Source: Sanyastnella coralliicola (GTDB taxonomy: Bacteria; Bacteroidota; Bacteroidia; Flavobacteriales_D; Sanyastnellaceae). Taken from it: DNA of 64,000 nt. The position numbers and the translations under genes are program-made. A model generated the notes under the pieces. It made no database searches. It was not told the DNA's origin and saw only the letters and a list, made by a program, of their open reading frames with translations. Location: positions 248,001 to 312,000 of the forward strand of contig NZ_CP132543.1 of NCBI RefSeq assembly GCF_030845195.1. Direction: 5' to 3'. Of this stretch, positions 10,115-18,033 are shown piece after piece; positions within the stretch are counted from its first letter, which is position 1; each line of letters opens with the position of its first letter.

Positions 10115-11361
10115 TGCGCCTCATTTATTCTTTAGGTGTTCGGTTGTACGGGGCGGTCATTCGTACCATTTCTCCTTTCAATTCAAAGGCCCACAAATGG
10201 GTGGCCGGACGAAGGAATTGGGAGAAACGTTACCGCGAAATTCTAAGAGATTGTGAGGGCGCAGTATGGATGCACTGTGCGAGTTTAGGCGAGTTTGAGC
10301 AGGGCAGACCTGTACTTGAAGCGGTGAAGGCGCAGTATCCAAATCGCAAGATTGTCTTGAGCTTCTATTCCCCCAGTGGTTATGAGATTCGAAAAGATTG
10401 GAAAGGAGCGGATGCTGTCATTTACCTGCCGCTAGATACCCCGTCAAATGCGCGAAAGTTGGTTTCGATGATGAAGCCTTCGCTGGCAATTTGGGTCAAG
10501 TACGAGTTTTGGTATCATCATTTTCAAGCCCTCCGGGCGGAACGCGTTCCGCTTATTTTGGTGAGCGGAATATTTCGTCCTTCTCAAGTCTTTTTCAAAC
10601 CTTGGGGTGCTTGGTTCAGAAAGCAACTCAAGCAGATGGACGCACTTTTCGTGCAGACCGAGGATAGTCGTGAGTTATTGAAACAGCATGGGATACCATC
10701 CAAAGTAGCTGGCGATACGCGATTTGATCGGGTGATCACTTTGGCAGAGAATGCCCATTCTGTTGATCCGGTCAAAGGCTTTGTCAATGACCAACCTTGC
10801 TTGGTCATGGGAAGTAGCTGGGGACCGGATGAAAAGCTCATGGCCAGTTATCTAGCGAAAGACCCTGAGTTGAAGGTAGTAGTGGTTCCTCATGAAGTAA
10901 ACGAGGGACATATCGAAAGTATCGAGTCACTGTTTGAAGGAAAGTCTATTCGCTATTCTCAATTGACACCTGCTTCCCCAGAATGCCAGGTGTTGATCGT
11001 TGATCAAATAGGTCTGCTCGGTCGTATTTATAAGGAAGCCGATATCACCTACATCGGTGGTGGTTTCGGTGCGGGAATACACAATACCCTCGAGGCAGCA
11101 GCTTATGGTGTACCTGTAGTGTTCGGTCCGAAGTACCAGAAGTTCAACGAAGCGATTGGATTGATTAAAGAAGGTGCGGCCTGGTCTATCAACGACCAAT
11201 CATCGTTTGACAAGGTGATCAACCGTCTACGCACAGATGAGGTTCAGCGACGAGAAGCCGGTGCGAAAGCATCGATGTTTGTGACCACCCATGCAGGCGC
11301 TACGGGTATGGTGATGGACATGATAGGGGCACGCATGCGTGCCCTTGACGGTGCGACGTGA
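10114..11361 (+). CDS. waaA: 3-deoxy-D-manno-octulosonic acid (Kdo) transferase, GT30
   Basis: With the ATG at 10114 (overlapping the previous stop) the product is 415 residues, normal for WaaA. It has an N-terminal membrane anchor (MRLIYSLGVRLYGAVIRTIS), WMHCASLGEFEQGRP with the catalytic Glu of GT30, SFYSPSGYE, and a C-terminal donor-binding IGGGFGAGIHNTLEAAAYG and VPVVFGPKYQKF. It adds Kdo to lipid IVA. The last roughly 12 residues (MDMIGARMRALDGAT) are written by the first unit of the adjacent REP array, so the native C-terminus has been replaced or extended. An upstream in-frame start at 10063 is less likely. Confidence 0.92.
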   Translation: MRLIYSLGVRLYGAVIRTISPFNSKAHKWVAGRRNWEKRYREILRDCEGAVWMHCASLGEFEQGRPVLEAVKAQYPNRKIVLSFYSPSGYEIRKDWKGADAVIYLPLDTPSNARKLVSMMKPSLAIWVKYEFWYHHFQALRAERVPLILVSGIFRPSQVFFKPWGAWFRKQLKQMDALFVQTEDSRELLKQHGIPSKVAGDTRFDRVITLAENAHSVDPVKGFVNDQPCLVMGSSWGPDEKLMASYLAKDPELKVVVVPHEVNEGHIESIESLFEGKSIRYSQLTPASPECQVLIVDQIGLLGRIYKEADITYIGGGFGAGIHNTLEAAAYGVPVVFGPKYQKFNEAIGLIKEGAAWSINDQSSFDKVINRLRTDEVQRREAGAKASMFVTTHAGATGMVMDMIGARMRALDGAT

Positions 11362-11860
11362 AGGACATGATAGGGGCACGCGTGCGTGCCCTTAACGGTG
11401 CGAGGAGAAGGATATGATAGGGGGCACGCATGCGTGCCCTTAACGGCGCGGTGAAGGACATGATAGGGGCACGCATGCGTGCCCTTAAAGGAGCGCGGTG
11501 AAGGACATGATAGGGGGCACGCATGCGTTCCCTTAACGGCGCGGTGAAGGACATGATAGGGGGCACGCATGCGTTCCCTTAACGGCGCGGTGAAGGACAT
11601 GATAGGGGCACGCATGCGTGCCTTTAACGGCGCGGTGAAGGACATGATAGGGGCACGCATGCGTGCCCTTAACGGTACGCGGTGAAGGATATGATAGGGG
11701 CACGCATGCGTGCCCAACGGTGCGCCGTGAAGGACATGATAAGGGCACGCATGCGTGCCCTTACCGGTACGCCGAGAAGGATATGATAGGGGCACGCATG
11801 CGTGCCCTTAACGGTGTGCCGTGAAAGACATGATAGGGGCACGCATGCGTGCCTTTAAAC
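11317..11860. repeat. REP-like array: 12 tandem palindromic units
   Basis: Twelve units of about 45-48 bp each carry ATGATAGGGGCACGCATG followed by CGTGCCCTTAACGG and a linker such as CGCGGTGAAGGAC. The core GGGCACGCATGCGTGCCC is an 18-bp perfect inverted repeat, so each unit can form a strong hairpin. Units differ slightly: the second has ACGCGTGCGT, the fifth and sixth have GCGTTCCC, and the seventh and twelfth have TGCCTTTA. The array starts inside the end of waaA and stops just before a RAYT transposase gene. This layout matches the REP/BIME-RAYT pairs known in other bacteria. It fills the space between waaA and the RAYT, with no protein gene inside. Confidence 0.9.
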
Positions 11861-11914
11861 GTTTATAAACGTTTATTAGACAGTCGTTTACGTTCGAGCC
11901 GTGTAGTTTGCGAT

Positions 11915-12388
11915 ATGCACAACAGACAAACAACGCGTCTCAAATGGTTCGATTATTCTTCATCAGGAACCCATTTCATTACGATCAATTGCAAAGACCG
12001 TCGAAAATATTTCGGCGCTATAGAAAATGGAGAGCTGAGGCCCTCATCCATAGGAAGGCAATTTGAGGAACACCTTCATTCTATACCTGGGAGATTACCG
12101 TATGTGCGGATTGAAGAATATGTAATCATGCCTGATCACATTCACTTTTTGCTTGTGATTGATGGGGAACATCTGGATAAAAACGGCGCTAATCAATTTG
12201 GGCATCTGAAAGAGGGGATGCCTAAAGCTATTTCAGTTCTCAAAGCCACCTTCGTTTCGAAAATGAAAAAGAAGAAAGTTCAATTCGCATGGCAACGAGG
12301 ATTCTATTCAGAGACGATTTTCAGAAAGCAAAGACGAGAGCAAGTTTCGAAGTATATTCGAGACAACCCGAAGAATTGGAGTAAATGA
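11915..12388 (+). CDS. REP-associated tyrosine transposase (RAYT, IS200/IS605-like Y1 HUH)
   Basis: From the ATG at 11915 the protein is 157 residues, a usual RAYT size. It has the N-terminal GTHFITINCKDRRKYFG strand, the metal-binding HUH motif as MPDHIHFLLV near residue 95, and a C-terminal helix with the candidate nucleophile Tyr in RGFYSETIFRK followed by YIRDNPKNW. RAYTs are single-copy HUH nucleases that cut and mobilise REP hairpins without forming a full insertion sequence. The 12-unit palindromic array lies just upstream. The longer reading frame from 11849 would start inside the last palindrome and is less likely. Confidence 0.88.
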   Translation: MHNRQTTRLKWFDYSSSGTHFITINCKDRRKYFGAIENGELRPSSIGRQFEEHLHSIPGRLPYVRIEEYVIMPDHIHFLLVIDGEHLDKNGANQFGHLKEGMPKAISVLKATFVSKMKKKKVQFAWQRGFYSETIFRKQRREQVSKYIRDNPKNWSK

Positions 12389-17427: not shown

Positions 17428-17548
17428 GTGTCGAACCGCTTTTGTCAGTGCTCATAGGGATTTCAGAAGGATTAGTCCCGTTACCCTGTTTTGACGAAAA
17501 CCAATAAAAAAGCCCTGCAACTCTACGTTACAGGGCTAAATGTACCCG
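17428..17548. repeat. Repeat module copy 3, ending in the tRNA-Leu 3' end
   Basis: Aligns with 15582-15693, diverged over its left 80 bp and identical over about 40 bp on the right, where it includes the terminator and the last six bases of the tRNA-Leu gene. It is probably the original locus from which the other copies arose. Confidence 0.7.
17511..17537. terminator. Terminator of the tRNA-Leu gene
   Basis: A 7-bp perfect AGCCCTG/CAGGGCT hairpin followed, on the minus strand, by a run of U. It lies 6 nt beyond the tRNA 3' end. Confidence 0.8.
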
Positions 17549-17895
17549 GAGTGGGACTTGAACCCACACGGCCATTGCTGGCCAAAGGATTTTACTTACC
17601 ATCTATAGCTTTCGCTACCACCTCAATCTCCCAGGTGTTTGTGGTCTGGACTTTATCTTCACCATACACAATGTGCTTAGGTGTCCGCCGTCAAGTCTCT
17701 ACACCTTTTCCTTTTCAGGAACTTGGCTCGGTATTGGCACCTATGTCACCATAGAAGCGTTCACCGAATTTGACGGATTCTACTCCGACGATTTCTCATC
17801 GGGCAACCCATGGTTTCTAAGAAACCCGCTGCGTTATAAAGGAGCAACCGCAGCAATCTTGAGTCCTTCGTGTCTACCAATTCCACCATCCGGGC
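17543..17895 (-). tRNA. tRNA-Leu(UAA), interrupted by a group I intron
   Basis: The exons are 17862-17895 (34 nt, 5' half) and 17543-17594 (52 nt, 3' half). Joined, they give an 86-nt class II tRNA. The acceptor is GCCCGGA/TCCGGGT (one terminal G.U pair), with discriminator A. The D-stem is GTG/CAC, and the anticodon arm AAGGA-CTTAAAA-TCCTT has anticodon UAA. The long variable arm contains GGCC/GGCC, and the T-arm is GTGGG-TTCAAGT-CCCAC. CCA is not encoded. All stems are complete only after the 267-nt intron is removed. It lies downstream of tRNA-Gly on the same strand. Confidence 0.93.
17595..17861 (-). ncRNA. Group I self-splicing intron in tRNA-Leu(UAA)
   Basis: The 267-nt intron has every core element in order on the minus strand. 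P contains CCGTCAAATTCGGTGAACGC (17776-17757), Q is GCCAATACCGAGCCAAG (17738-17722), R is GTGTAGAGACTTGACGGC (17704-17687) and S is AAGATAAAGTCC (17659-17648). P3 pairs CCGUC with GACGG and P7 pairs GACU with AGUC. P8 is CACC...GGTG with an inner CACA/TGTG. A TAGC-GAAA-GCTA tetraloop hairpin (17617-17606) lies near the 3' end. The 5' exon ends in U and the intron ends in G, as splicing requires. R, S and the GAAA hairpin closely resemble cyanobacterial tRNA-Leu introns (subgroup IC3). No endonuclease gene is inside. Confidence 0.92.
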
Positions 17896-17956: not shown

Positions 17957-17960
17957 CTTG

Positions 17961-18033
17961 AGCGAGAAACGAGACTCGAACTCGCGACCCCAACCTTGGC
18001 AAGGTTGTGCTCTACCAACTGAGCTATTCTCGC
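17961..18033 (-). tRNA. tRNA-Gly(GCC)
   Basis: A 73-nt tRNA on the minus strand. Acceptor GCGAGAA pairs with TTCTCGC and the discriminator is T. The D-arm carries AGCTCAGTTGGTAGAGC, the anticodon loop TTGCCAA gives anticodon GCC, and the T-arm reads GCGAG-TTCGAGT-CTCGT. CCA is not encoded. Confidence 0.95.

Follow-up and report, generated by a model that had tools for sequence, protein, structure and literature searches.

A group I intron between U33 and U34 of tRNA-Leu(UAA) in Sanyastnella coralliicola and its probable lateral gain

The tRNA-Leu(UAA) gene of Sanyastnella coralliicola is interrupted by an insert that sequence comparison confirms to be a true group I intron of a type already known, as an earlier note on this DNA had proposed. 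By comparison with related genomes, the intron is placed between U33 and U34, one base upstream of the position where introns in this tRNA usually lie. It lies in a 64,000-nt stretch of contig NZ_CP132543.1 (positions 248,001 to 312,000), which is referred to as the window throughout and to which all coordinates are relative. Taking the evidence as a whole, we consider it very probable that the insert is a compact ribozyme that resides after U33, splices itself, was acquired laterally, and no longer carries a homing gene.

Results

An interrupted tRNA-Leu(UAA) gene with an empty site in congeners

The split gene occupies 17543-17895 of the window on the minus strand and consists of two exons separated by a 267-nt insert (Table 1). 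Joining the exons as proposed in the earlier note yields ...GGACU-UAAAAUCC..., an 86-nt tRNA-Leu(UAA) with the 7-nt anticodon loop CUUAAAA, and this product was found to be the same, with no differences, as the uninterrupted tRNA of two congeners, G001 and G002. In both congeners the intronless gene lies downstream of the same tRNA-Gly(GCC) as in the window, so that the comparison of relatives suggested by the note returned an empty site twice. The G001 locus (L033) matches the window at 91.8% identity over 645 nt, running through the 5' exon and resuming at the 3' exon; the G002 locus (L032) matches at 75% over 208 nt. The empty site of the congener reads GGACTTAAAATCC, and the window at this point reads GGACT-[CAAG...GTAAG]-TAAAATCC. 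Because of this empty site, and because group I introns follow an exon ending in U and themselves end in G, the boundary was set between U33 and U34; both of these bases are present in the window sequence, and the identical exons of the congeners support the same position. Standard tRNA prediction handled the locus poorly. With introns switched off, ARAGORN did not find the split gene and reported just the neighboring tRNA-Gly(GCC), and with introns switched on it found the gene with the splice site misplaced.

Table 1. Features of the interrupted tRNA-Leu(UAA) locus. Percentages of paired cells and changes on both sides of a pair refer to the alignment of 25 introns described in the text.
Feature	Position in window	Strand	Remarks
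tRNA-Gly(GCC), upstream neighbor	17960..18033	(-)	ARAGORN; upstream of tRNA-Leu(UAA) also in both congeners and at four g9 loci
5' exon of tRNA-Leu(UAA)	17862..17895	(-)	34 nt, ends ...GGACU (C32, U33); 34/34 identical to the intronless tRNA of the congeners
Group I intron	17595..17861	(-)	267 nt, last base G (17595); RF00028 54.5 bits; empty site in L033; fold z -3.69
Long P1 loop	17811..17859	(-)	HNH gene at the same place in L171, L307 and L348; no remnant detected in the window
Internal guide sequence UGGGUU (putative)	17805..17810	(-)	Intron 52-57; pairs with exon GACU (17865-17862) and intron CA (17861-17860)
P2 hairpin CCGAUGA-GAAA-UCGUCGG	17785..17802	(-)	GAAA tetraloop 17795-17792; 7/7 pairs with both-side changes, 81% of cells paired
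P3 UCCGUC/GGCGGA (17777-17772 with 17689-17684)	17684..17777	(-)	100% of cells paired, 5/6 pairs with both-side changes
P4, P5, P6 and 5' strand of P7	inside 17684..17777	(-)	Enclosed by P3
P7 GACUU/AAGUC (17697-17693 with 17653-17649), R and S elements	17649..17697	(-)	P7 invariant in 25/25
P8, between the P7 strands	CCUAAG 17681-17676, UAUGG 17666-17662	(-)	Motif read in the sequence
P9.0 (17645-17642 with 17601-17598)	within 17598..17645	(-)	69% paired
P9 hairpin GUAGC-GAAA-GCUAU	17618-17605	(-)	100% paired, 5/5 pairs with both-side changes
3' exon of tRNA-Leu(UAA)	17543..17594	(-)	Starts U34-A-A; 52/52 identical to the congeners

Group I structure and guide sequence

An Rfam search identified one group I intron (RF00028) at 17628-17848, scoring above the gathering threshold of 50 bits with an E-value of 4.6e-11; RF00028 matched nowhere else in the genome, a single contig of 4.1 Mb. 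The lowest free energy of the intron is below that of all 200 shuffled sequences. For structural comparison, introns from three host genes, tRNA-Leu(UAA), tRNA-Leu(CAA), and CAU tRNAs interrupted after position 33, were aligned. The alignment took 25 of 34 reference introns, omitting L125 and L146 for a mis-cut guide, L098 for its length, and L064, L075, L095, L101, L104, and L163 for thinning. The resulting 60-pair structure is paired in 89.8% of cells and shows both-side changes at 44 pairs. No shuffle out of 500 did as well, and slid versions reached at most 46% paired cells and 26 both-side changes, a comparison biased in favor of the structure in that it was drawn on the window row, itself part of the alignment. 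Helices P3, P4, P6, and P7 are paired in 99-100% of cells and the outer P8 in 97%, giving the pseudoknotted P3/P7 core of a group I intron, while P5 (73%) and P9.0 (69%) are weakly supported. The P7 pairing GACU/AGUC of the earlier note was right. Its P3, given as CCGUC/GACGG, was out of register by three columns, with 84.8% of cells paired and a covariation of 0.22, against 100% and 0.78 for the pairing in Table 1. Both P2 and P9 of the window intron are capped by GAAA loops. The CCUAAG/UAUGG motif in P8 was found in one of the eight introns known after U33 of tRNA-Leu(UAA), namely that of the window, and no tertiary contact is therefore claimed for it. By resemblance, the intron may belong to subgroup IC3; the model used here is the general RF00028.

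P1 of the window intron would contain a U33.G pair at the splice site, with the putative guide UGGGUU pairing across the end of the exon and the first bases of the intron. The motif GGGUUGC stands directly 5' of P2 in all six Bacteroidota introns located after U33 of tRNA-Leu(UAA), at 17809-17803 in the window, where it is preceded by U17810. The assignment of the guide thus follows the alignment with relatives and not the automatic guide search, which maximized pairing alone and picked another site for the window (GGTTTC), for L125, and for several CAU introns at position 33. The GGUU at intron positions 13-16 that the note had put forward as guide was rejected: it is missing at that place in L108 and L127 and does not occupy the conserved location before P2. 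P10 is weak, with two pairs at most as read by eye. Across host genes, the guide tracks the exon in the placed introns among the matches listed. In tRNA-Leu(UAA) interrupted after position 34, exon ACUU is accompanied by guide GAGU in 61 of 76 cases, and in tRNA-Leu(CAA) interrupted after position 33, exon GACU is accompanied by GGUC in six of six. For CAU tRNAs interrupted after position 33, 30 of 39 have exon GGCU with guide GGCU; three have exon GACU, and two of these (L146 and L163) have GGUU.

A single copy whose splicing is presumably essential

The whole genome (one contig, completeness 99.87) was searched with the intact tRNA-Leu(UAA) of the congener at E <= 0.01. Matches were limited to the two exons described here, tRNA-Leu(CAA) at 76%, and tRNA-Leu(UAG) at 74%; no further tRNA-Leu(UAA) was found in this search, and the other intact gene that the note had named as grounds for abandoning the idea did not appear. 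The single-copy claim rests on this search, the tRNA list of the genome itself being incomplete (150 of 222 candidates scored, tRNA-Ala absent). Among the 437 leucine codons of ten ORFs in the window, 51 are UUA. Since no second tRNA-Leu(UAA) was found, the predicted splicing is presumably essential to the host.

Two other readings of the locus were weighed at this point. The note had held that the U33/U34 boundary is the only one to give a 7-nt loop, which is so under group I rules; on loop length alone, a cut after position 34 does equally well. Such a cut would place the intron at the usual site, with an exon ...GACUC and an intron AAGAUU...GUAAGU, and position 34 is the commonest site for introns in tRNA-Leu(UAA) (40, against 5 at position 33, in the 111 clean genome placements among the matches listed). 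However, the exon would then end in C and the intron in U, contrary to group I rules, and the product would be a tRNA-Leu(CAA), which the genome already has, with no tRNA-Leu(UAA) remaining. The congeners moreover show UAA at the same locus, and the guide of the Bacteroidota relatives pairs in the U33 register, so a cut after position 34 is extremely improbable. Equally improbable is a decayed insertion that is no longer spliced while tRNA-Leu(UAA) is supplied from elsewhere: nothing was found in its favor, the core helices of the intron are intact, and the search of the single contig turned up no other gene for this tRNA.

What can be read directly for this intron is its sequence, its structure, its empty site, its single copy, and its nearest relatives. 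Splicing is most likely, judging from the anatomy together with what is known of group I introns in general, and its steps can be outlined on the same basis. After transcription the RNA would fold, and the guide UGGGUU would pair with the end of the 5' exon. Guanosine would then attack and cut after U33, at the U.G pair. The freed U33 would in turn attack after the terminal G, joining U33 to U34 and restoring the anticodon loop CUUAAAA. Standard tRNA maturation would follow exon ligation, and a host protein may help.

Related introns in genomes and viruses

Scanning with a pattern for the R element returned at least 119 genome stretches and at least 120 viral stretches, which are counts and not frequencies. 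Among the matches listed, 246 oriented copies were collected, 126 from genomes and 120 from viruses, with the window and six g9/f9 loci added to the genome set. Three loci are present twice among the genome copies (L063=L137, L064=L134, and L065=L116): L063 and L064, from genus g9 of the window's own family, share 400 identical bases with L137 and L134 from MAGs named Flavobacteriales, and L065, from the same taxonomic order, does so with L116 from a Lishizhenia MAG. Clean placement in a tRNA was possible for 160 of the 246 (111 genome, 49 viral); 54 had no ARAGORN tRNA, and the rest were ties, had low scores, or lacked a candidate. Among the matches listed, the clean genome placements comprise tRNA-Leu(UAA) after position 34 (40), CAU after 33 (26; initiator identity inferred from the stem), CAU after 36 (15), CCU after 36 (15), tRNA-Leu(CAA) after 33 (6), tRNA-Leu(UAA) after 33 (5), GUA after 35 (3), and one other, with none of the 111 at position 37/38. 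Of the 49 viral placements in the same matches, 33 are in tRNA-Leu(UAA) after position 34, two in tRNA-Leu(UAA) after 33, and 14 elsewhere.

At least eight introns besides that of the window were found between U33 and U34 of tRNA-Leu(UAA), and the notion of a one-off insertion was dropped given this recurrence of the site in other genomes. The genome copies among the matches listed are those of the window, Lewinella sp. IMCC34191 (L108), a Saprospiraceae MAG (L127), Lewinellaceae SD302 (L171), and the gammaproteobacterium AqS3 (L125). Two later copies, L307 and L348, both come from one genus of the family of genome G574; in placing L307 to L340, L310 remained unplaced and L308 and L309 were tied. 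The remark in the note that few tRNA group I introns occur in Bacteroidota did not survive the survey. The R-element pattern, with at most one mismatch, is present in 20 of 395 genomes of the phylum, a count that takes in S. coralliicola itself and one match for which no tRNA could be placed, and in 10 of 395 genomes of the class, the own genome again included, while the reversed pattern gave no matches in either set of 395. In the family of G574, matches to the intron core were found in 41 of 248 genomes, counting short ones, some below 40 nt. Of 30 loci from that family, 24 were placed plausibly (11 CAU after 33, 11 tRNA-Leu(UAA) after 34, two tRNA-Leu(UAA) after 33); five were unplaced, the loop obtained for L368 is implausible, and L349 coincides with L307. 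In the window's own family, on the other hand, RF00028 was detected under stricter filters in just five of 114 genomes: that of S. coralliicola and four of genus g9, whose intron (L061-L064) is a different one, located after U34 and containing an HNH gene.

Several loci were of interest in their own right. Genome G574 has both an intron with an HNH gene after U33 of tRNA-Leu(UAA) (L307) and an intron in an initiator-type CAU tRNA at the same position (L327). Introns of 622-635 nt at L073, L149, and L170 follow position 35 of tRNA-Tyr(GUA), and the protein of the L170 intron matches PD-(D/E)XK_5, as does that of the L312 intron after position 33 of a CAU tRNA. The L065/L116 contig is AT-rich by eye, has seven ARAGORN tRNAs in 3.2 kb, and includes a tRNA-Leu(UAA) whose U34 intron holds a C-terminal HNH gene remnant; it looks like phage DNA binned with Lishizhenia. 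At L066 (900-1700, from G245), the gene with the intron is preceded, some 106 nt upstream as counted by eye, by a partial second copy of the tRNA-Leu 5' half. Within the window itself, a 47-bp unit is repeated in tandem about 12 times at positions 11310-12388. The unit contains a palindrome (GGGGCACGCATGCGTGCCCT), and the array lies immediately upstream of an ORF that matches Pfam Y1_Tnp (IS200-like). This ORF and the repeats are possibly a RAYT with its repeats.

Homing endonuclease genes

A frame of more than 110 amino acids with an HNH-type CPNCH motif was found in 14 introns (12 distinct loci), all in tRNA-Leu(UAA), and additionally in L348, which was found later. Of three proteins scanned, two scored above cut-off with Pfam HNH or HNH_3 and that of L307 fell just below it (23.8 against 24.8 bits), and PHROG 10822 matched both HNH proteins scanned with it. 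Three relatives of the window intron (L171, L307, and L348) have the full frame inside the P1 loop, and L108 has an N-terminal remnant. As read by eye, the three full frames run across the guide into P2, such that the same bases serve protein and ribozyme. Alignment with the HNH protein of L307 detected no remnant in the P1 loop of the window or in L127. The start of the window intron alone resembles L348 (11 of 2000 shuffles scored as high; the other four comparisons gave 110, 153, 721, and 1801). The HNH proteins of the g9 introns share 31-36% identity with those of the U33 introns, which are nearer (39-45%) to the proteins of L076, L089, L174, and L182, which are introns after U34 of tRNA-Leu. 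A homing endonuclease is thus encoded in relatives of the window intron and not in the window copy itself. Lacking an HNH gene, the window copy should therefore not home by itself, although it is predicted to splice. From these sequences we infer that it may have carried an endonuclease in the past.

Kinship and probable lateral gain

In BLAST comparisons, the nearest introns to that of the window are L171 (80.5% over 221 nt), L108, L307, and L127, all after U33 of tRNA-Leu(UAA), and the next match after introns of this type is L218, a viral U34 intron. Identity of the window intron to L171, L307, L108, and L127 is 73-81% over 192-236 nt, and to L348 it is 79%. Three trees were built. The largest has 183 cores and 169 columns, from 190 placements of which 185 had the core anchor and two more rows were dropped. 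A tree of 60 rows and 206 columns skipped 13 introns, had L064, L116, L134, L137, and L340 removed by hand (leaving g9 with three rows), and used hand-picked viral and CAU position-33 rows (6 and 12); the 86-row tree was sub-sampled likewise. The five Bacteroidota U33 introns then known are joined at 94/99 in the 183-core tree, at 100/99 in the 60-row tree, and at 97/92 in the latter without guide columns, with the window and L171 together at 99/95 and 97/96 in the two full trees. In the 86-row tree, the U33 set is joined together with two viral U34 introns at 95/93; its inner order is unsettled, and forcing the six U33 introns into one group costs almost nothing (p 0.506). The window intron is nearest to Lewinellaceae introns in all three trees, on a long terminal branch of 0.26-0.28. 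Its exons, which match the congeners' base for base, show many differences from Lewinellaceae tRNAs. Intron and exons therefore appear to differ in their history, which is what lateral transfer of the intron would predict.

Of the two histories that the note had offered, lateral transfer came out as the likelier: the nearest introns are the Lewinellaceae U33 ones, the congeners are empty, and a grouping with the g9 introns failed two of the four AU tests. The lineage of the window would have gained a U33/U34 intron of the kind found in Lewinellaceae and Saprospiraceae, some of which have an HNH gene in the P1 loop, and the HNH homing gene would then have been lost from the window copy. We consider this gain probable and infer its direction from the sequences. 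The evidence for lateral gain is good but not uniform. The main competing history holds that the intron was already present in the ancestor of the family, that most members lost it, and that a one-base slip moved it from the U34 site seen in g9. It is favored by the fact that g9 has the same tRNA interrupted, next to the same tRNA-Gly, and by the membership of both introns in one broad family, and holding the window intron with the g9 U34 introns was not rejected by the AU test in the 183-core and 86-row trees (p 0.264 and p 0.11, respectively). The same constraint was rejected in the 60-row tree (p 0.0006), also without guide columns (p 0.002); both congeners are empty, RF00028 was detected in just the five family genomes noted above, and the endonucleases of the g9 and U33 introns are as dissimilar as described. 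Ancestral presence is accordingly unlikely, and lateral gain from an intron of the Lewinellaceae type is preferred. A separate question is how the U33 site of tRNA-Leu arose in the first place. An initiator tRNA-fMet intron, which occupies the same position, could have founded it by a one-base change of the guide from GGGCUGC to GGGUUGC. Both sets have the guide motif GGGYUGC, the agreement of exon and guide seen in CAU introns extends to the two with exon GACU and guide GGUU, and a single clade of fMet and U33-Leu introns was not rejected (p 0.386 in the 183-core tree, p 0.054 in the 60-row tree without guide columns). Yet this clade was recovered in no tree, and alternatives stand as well, with tRNA-Leu(CAA) after position 33 (p 0.355 and 0.149) or tRNA-Leu(UAA) after position 34 (p 0.087); the only protein scanned from an fMet intron matches PD-(D/E)XK_5, whereas U33-Leu introns carry HNH, like those at U34. 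Holding all eight U33-Leu(UAA) introns as one group gave p 0.249, and none of the origin tests was rejected at 0.05. We regard an fMet origin as possible but doubtful.

Discussion

The closest known counterparts of the window intron are the Lewinellaceae and Saprospiraceae introns (L171, L307, L348, L108, and L127), which have the same host gene, site, and guide GGGUUGC and differ in the HNH frame or remnant carried by all but L127. The g9 introns of the same family interrupt the same gene downstream of tRNA-Gly(GCC), but after U34 and with guide GAGU. The Azoarcus tRNA-Ile intron has a comparable compact core, with GAAA loops on P2 and P9 and CCUAAG/UAUGG as in the window, in another tRNA and inserted after position 36. 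Cyanobacterial and plastid tRNA-Leu(UAA) introns likewise resemble the window intron in host gene, group I core, and small size, but are inserted between U34 and A35; the trees here were built without a standard cyanobacterial one. These introns were reportedly described by Xu 1990, Kuhsel 1990, and Paquin 1997, and a tRNA-Leu(UAA) intron outside cyanobacteria, in Pseudomonas D0715, is said to have been described by Vepritskiy 2002; it interrupts the same gene as in the window, in another phylum. An interrupted tRNA-Leu(UAA) with a putative group I intron is also noted in accessible text on Beggiatoaceae (PMC4853749), again outside cyanobacteria as in the window and in a different phylum. Introns of tRNA-fMet share the U33/34 position and, as CAU after 33, make up 26 of the 111 clean genome placements among the matches listed; they differ in the tRNA, in a guide that is mostly GGGCUGC, and in the PD-(D/E)XK_5 match of one protein scanned, and the available part of one paper describes a tRNA-fMet intron with the PD-(D/E)XK endonuclease I-Ssp6803I (PMC1995217).

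The survey differs in several respects from published summaries. The table in the available portion of a 2014 review has bacterial group I tRNA introns solely in cyanobacteria, alphaproteobacteria, and betaproteobacteria, and position 37/38 is named in the text as the site of most of them (PMC4033280). According to the accessible text of another 2014 review, all phage introns known by then were in protein genes (PMC3984707); here, tRNA-Leu(UAA) genes with group I introns inside were found in the phage isolate Atu_ph07 (L343) and in two uncultured phage records (L345 and L346). The Atu_ph07 stretch has 11 annotated features, not one of them a tRNA, and the interrupted gene overlaps with a hypothetical protein. 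Our literature search, with many subscription papers outside its reach, found no paper on a group I intron in tRNA-Leu of Bacteroidetes or Bacteroidota, and the U33 site is unmentioned in the titles and abstract beginnings of the literature searched. The intron is thus of a known kind at a site shifted by one base, a variant that this search did not find in print.

A broader and more speculative proposal is that U33/34 in the anticodon loop serves mobile introns of different tRNAs as a common docking site, between whose fMet and Leu versions introns would move by changing one guide base to match nucleotide 31. Phage tRNAs would aid the spread, and the window copy would represent such a move combined with transfer between orders and loss of the endonuclease. 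We put this forward tentatively and think it rather unlikely as a whole.

In any case, the findings suggest that the tRNA-Leu(UAA) gene of one family was apparently invaded twice, at sites one base apart and by introns whose guides match the two registers. A congener with an empty site offers a direct before-and-after pair for intron gain, and the relatives span a full HNH frame, a remnant, and none detectable, which makes gain, guide adaptation, and endonuclease loss testable in one system. Intron-free tRNA finding misses a presumably essential tRNA-Leu(UAA) here, and by the statement of its own authors, in the accessible text, tRNAscan-SE 2.0 is not designed for group I tRNA introns, of which it names the fMet and Ile2 cases (PMC8450103). 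Group I introns in tRNA genes are found in an appreciable fraction of Bacteroidota, and phage tRNA genes have them too.
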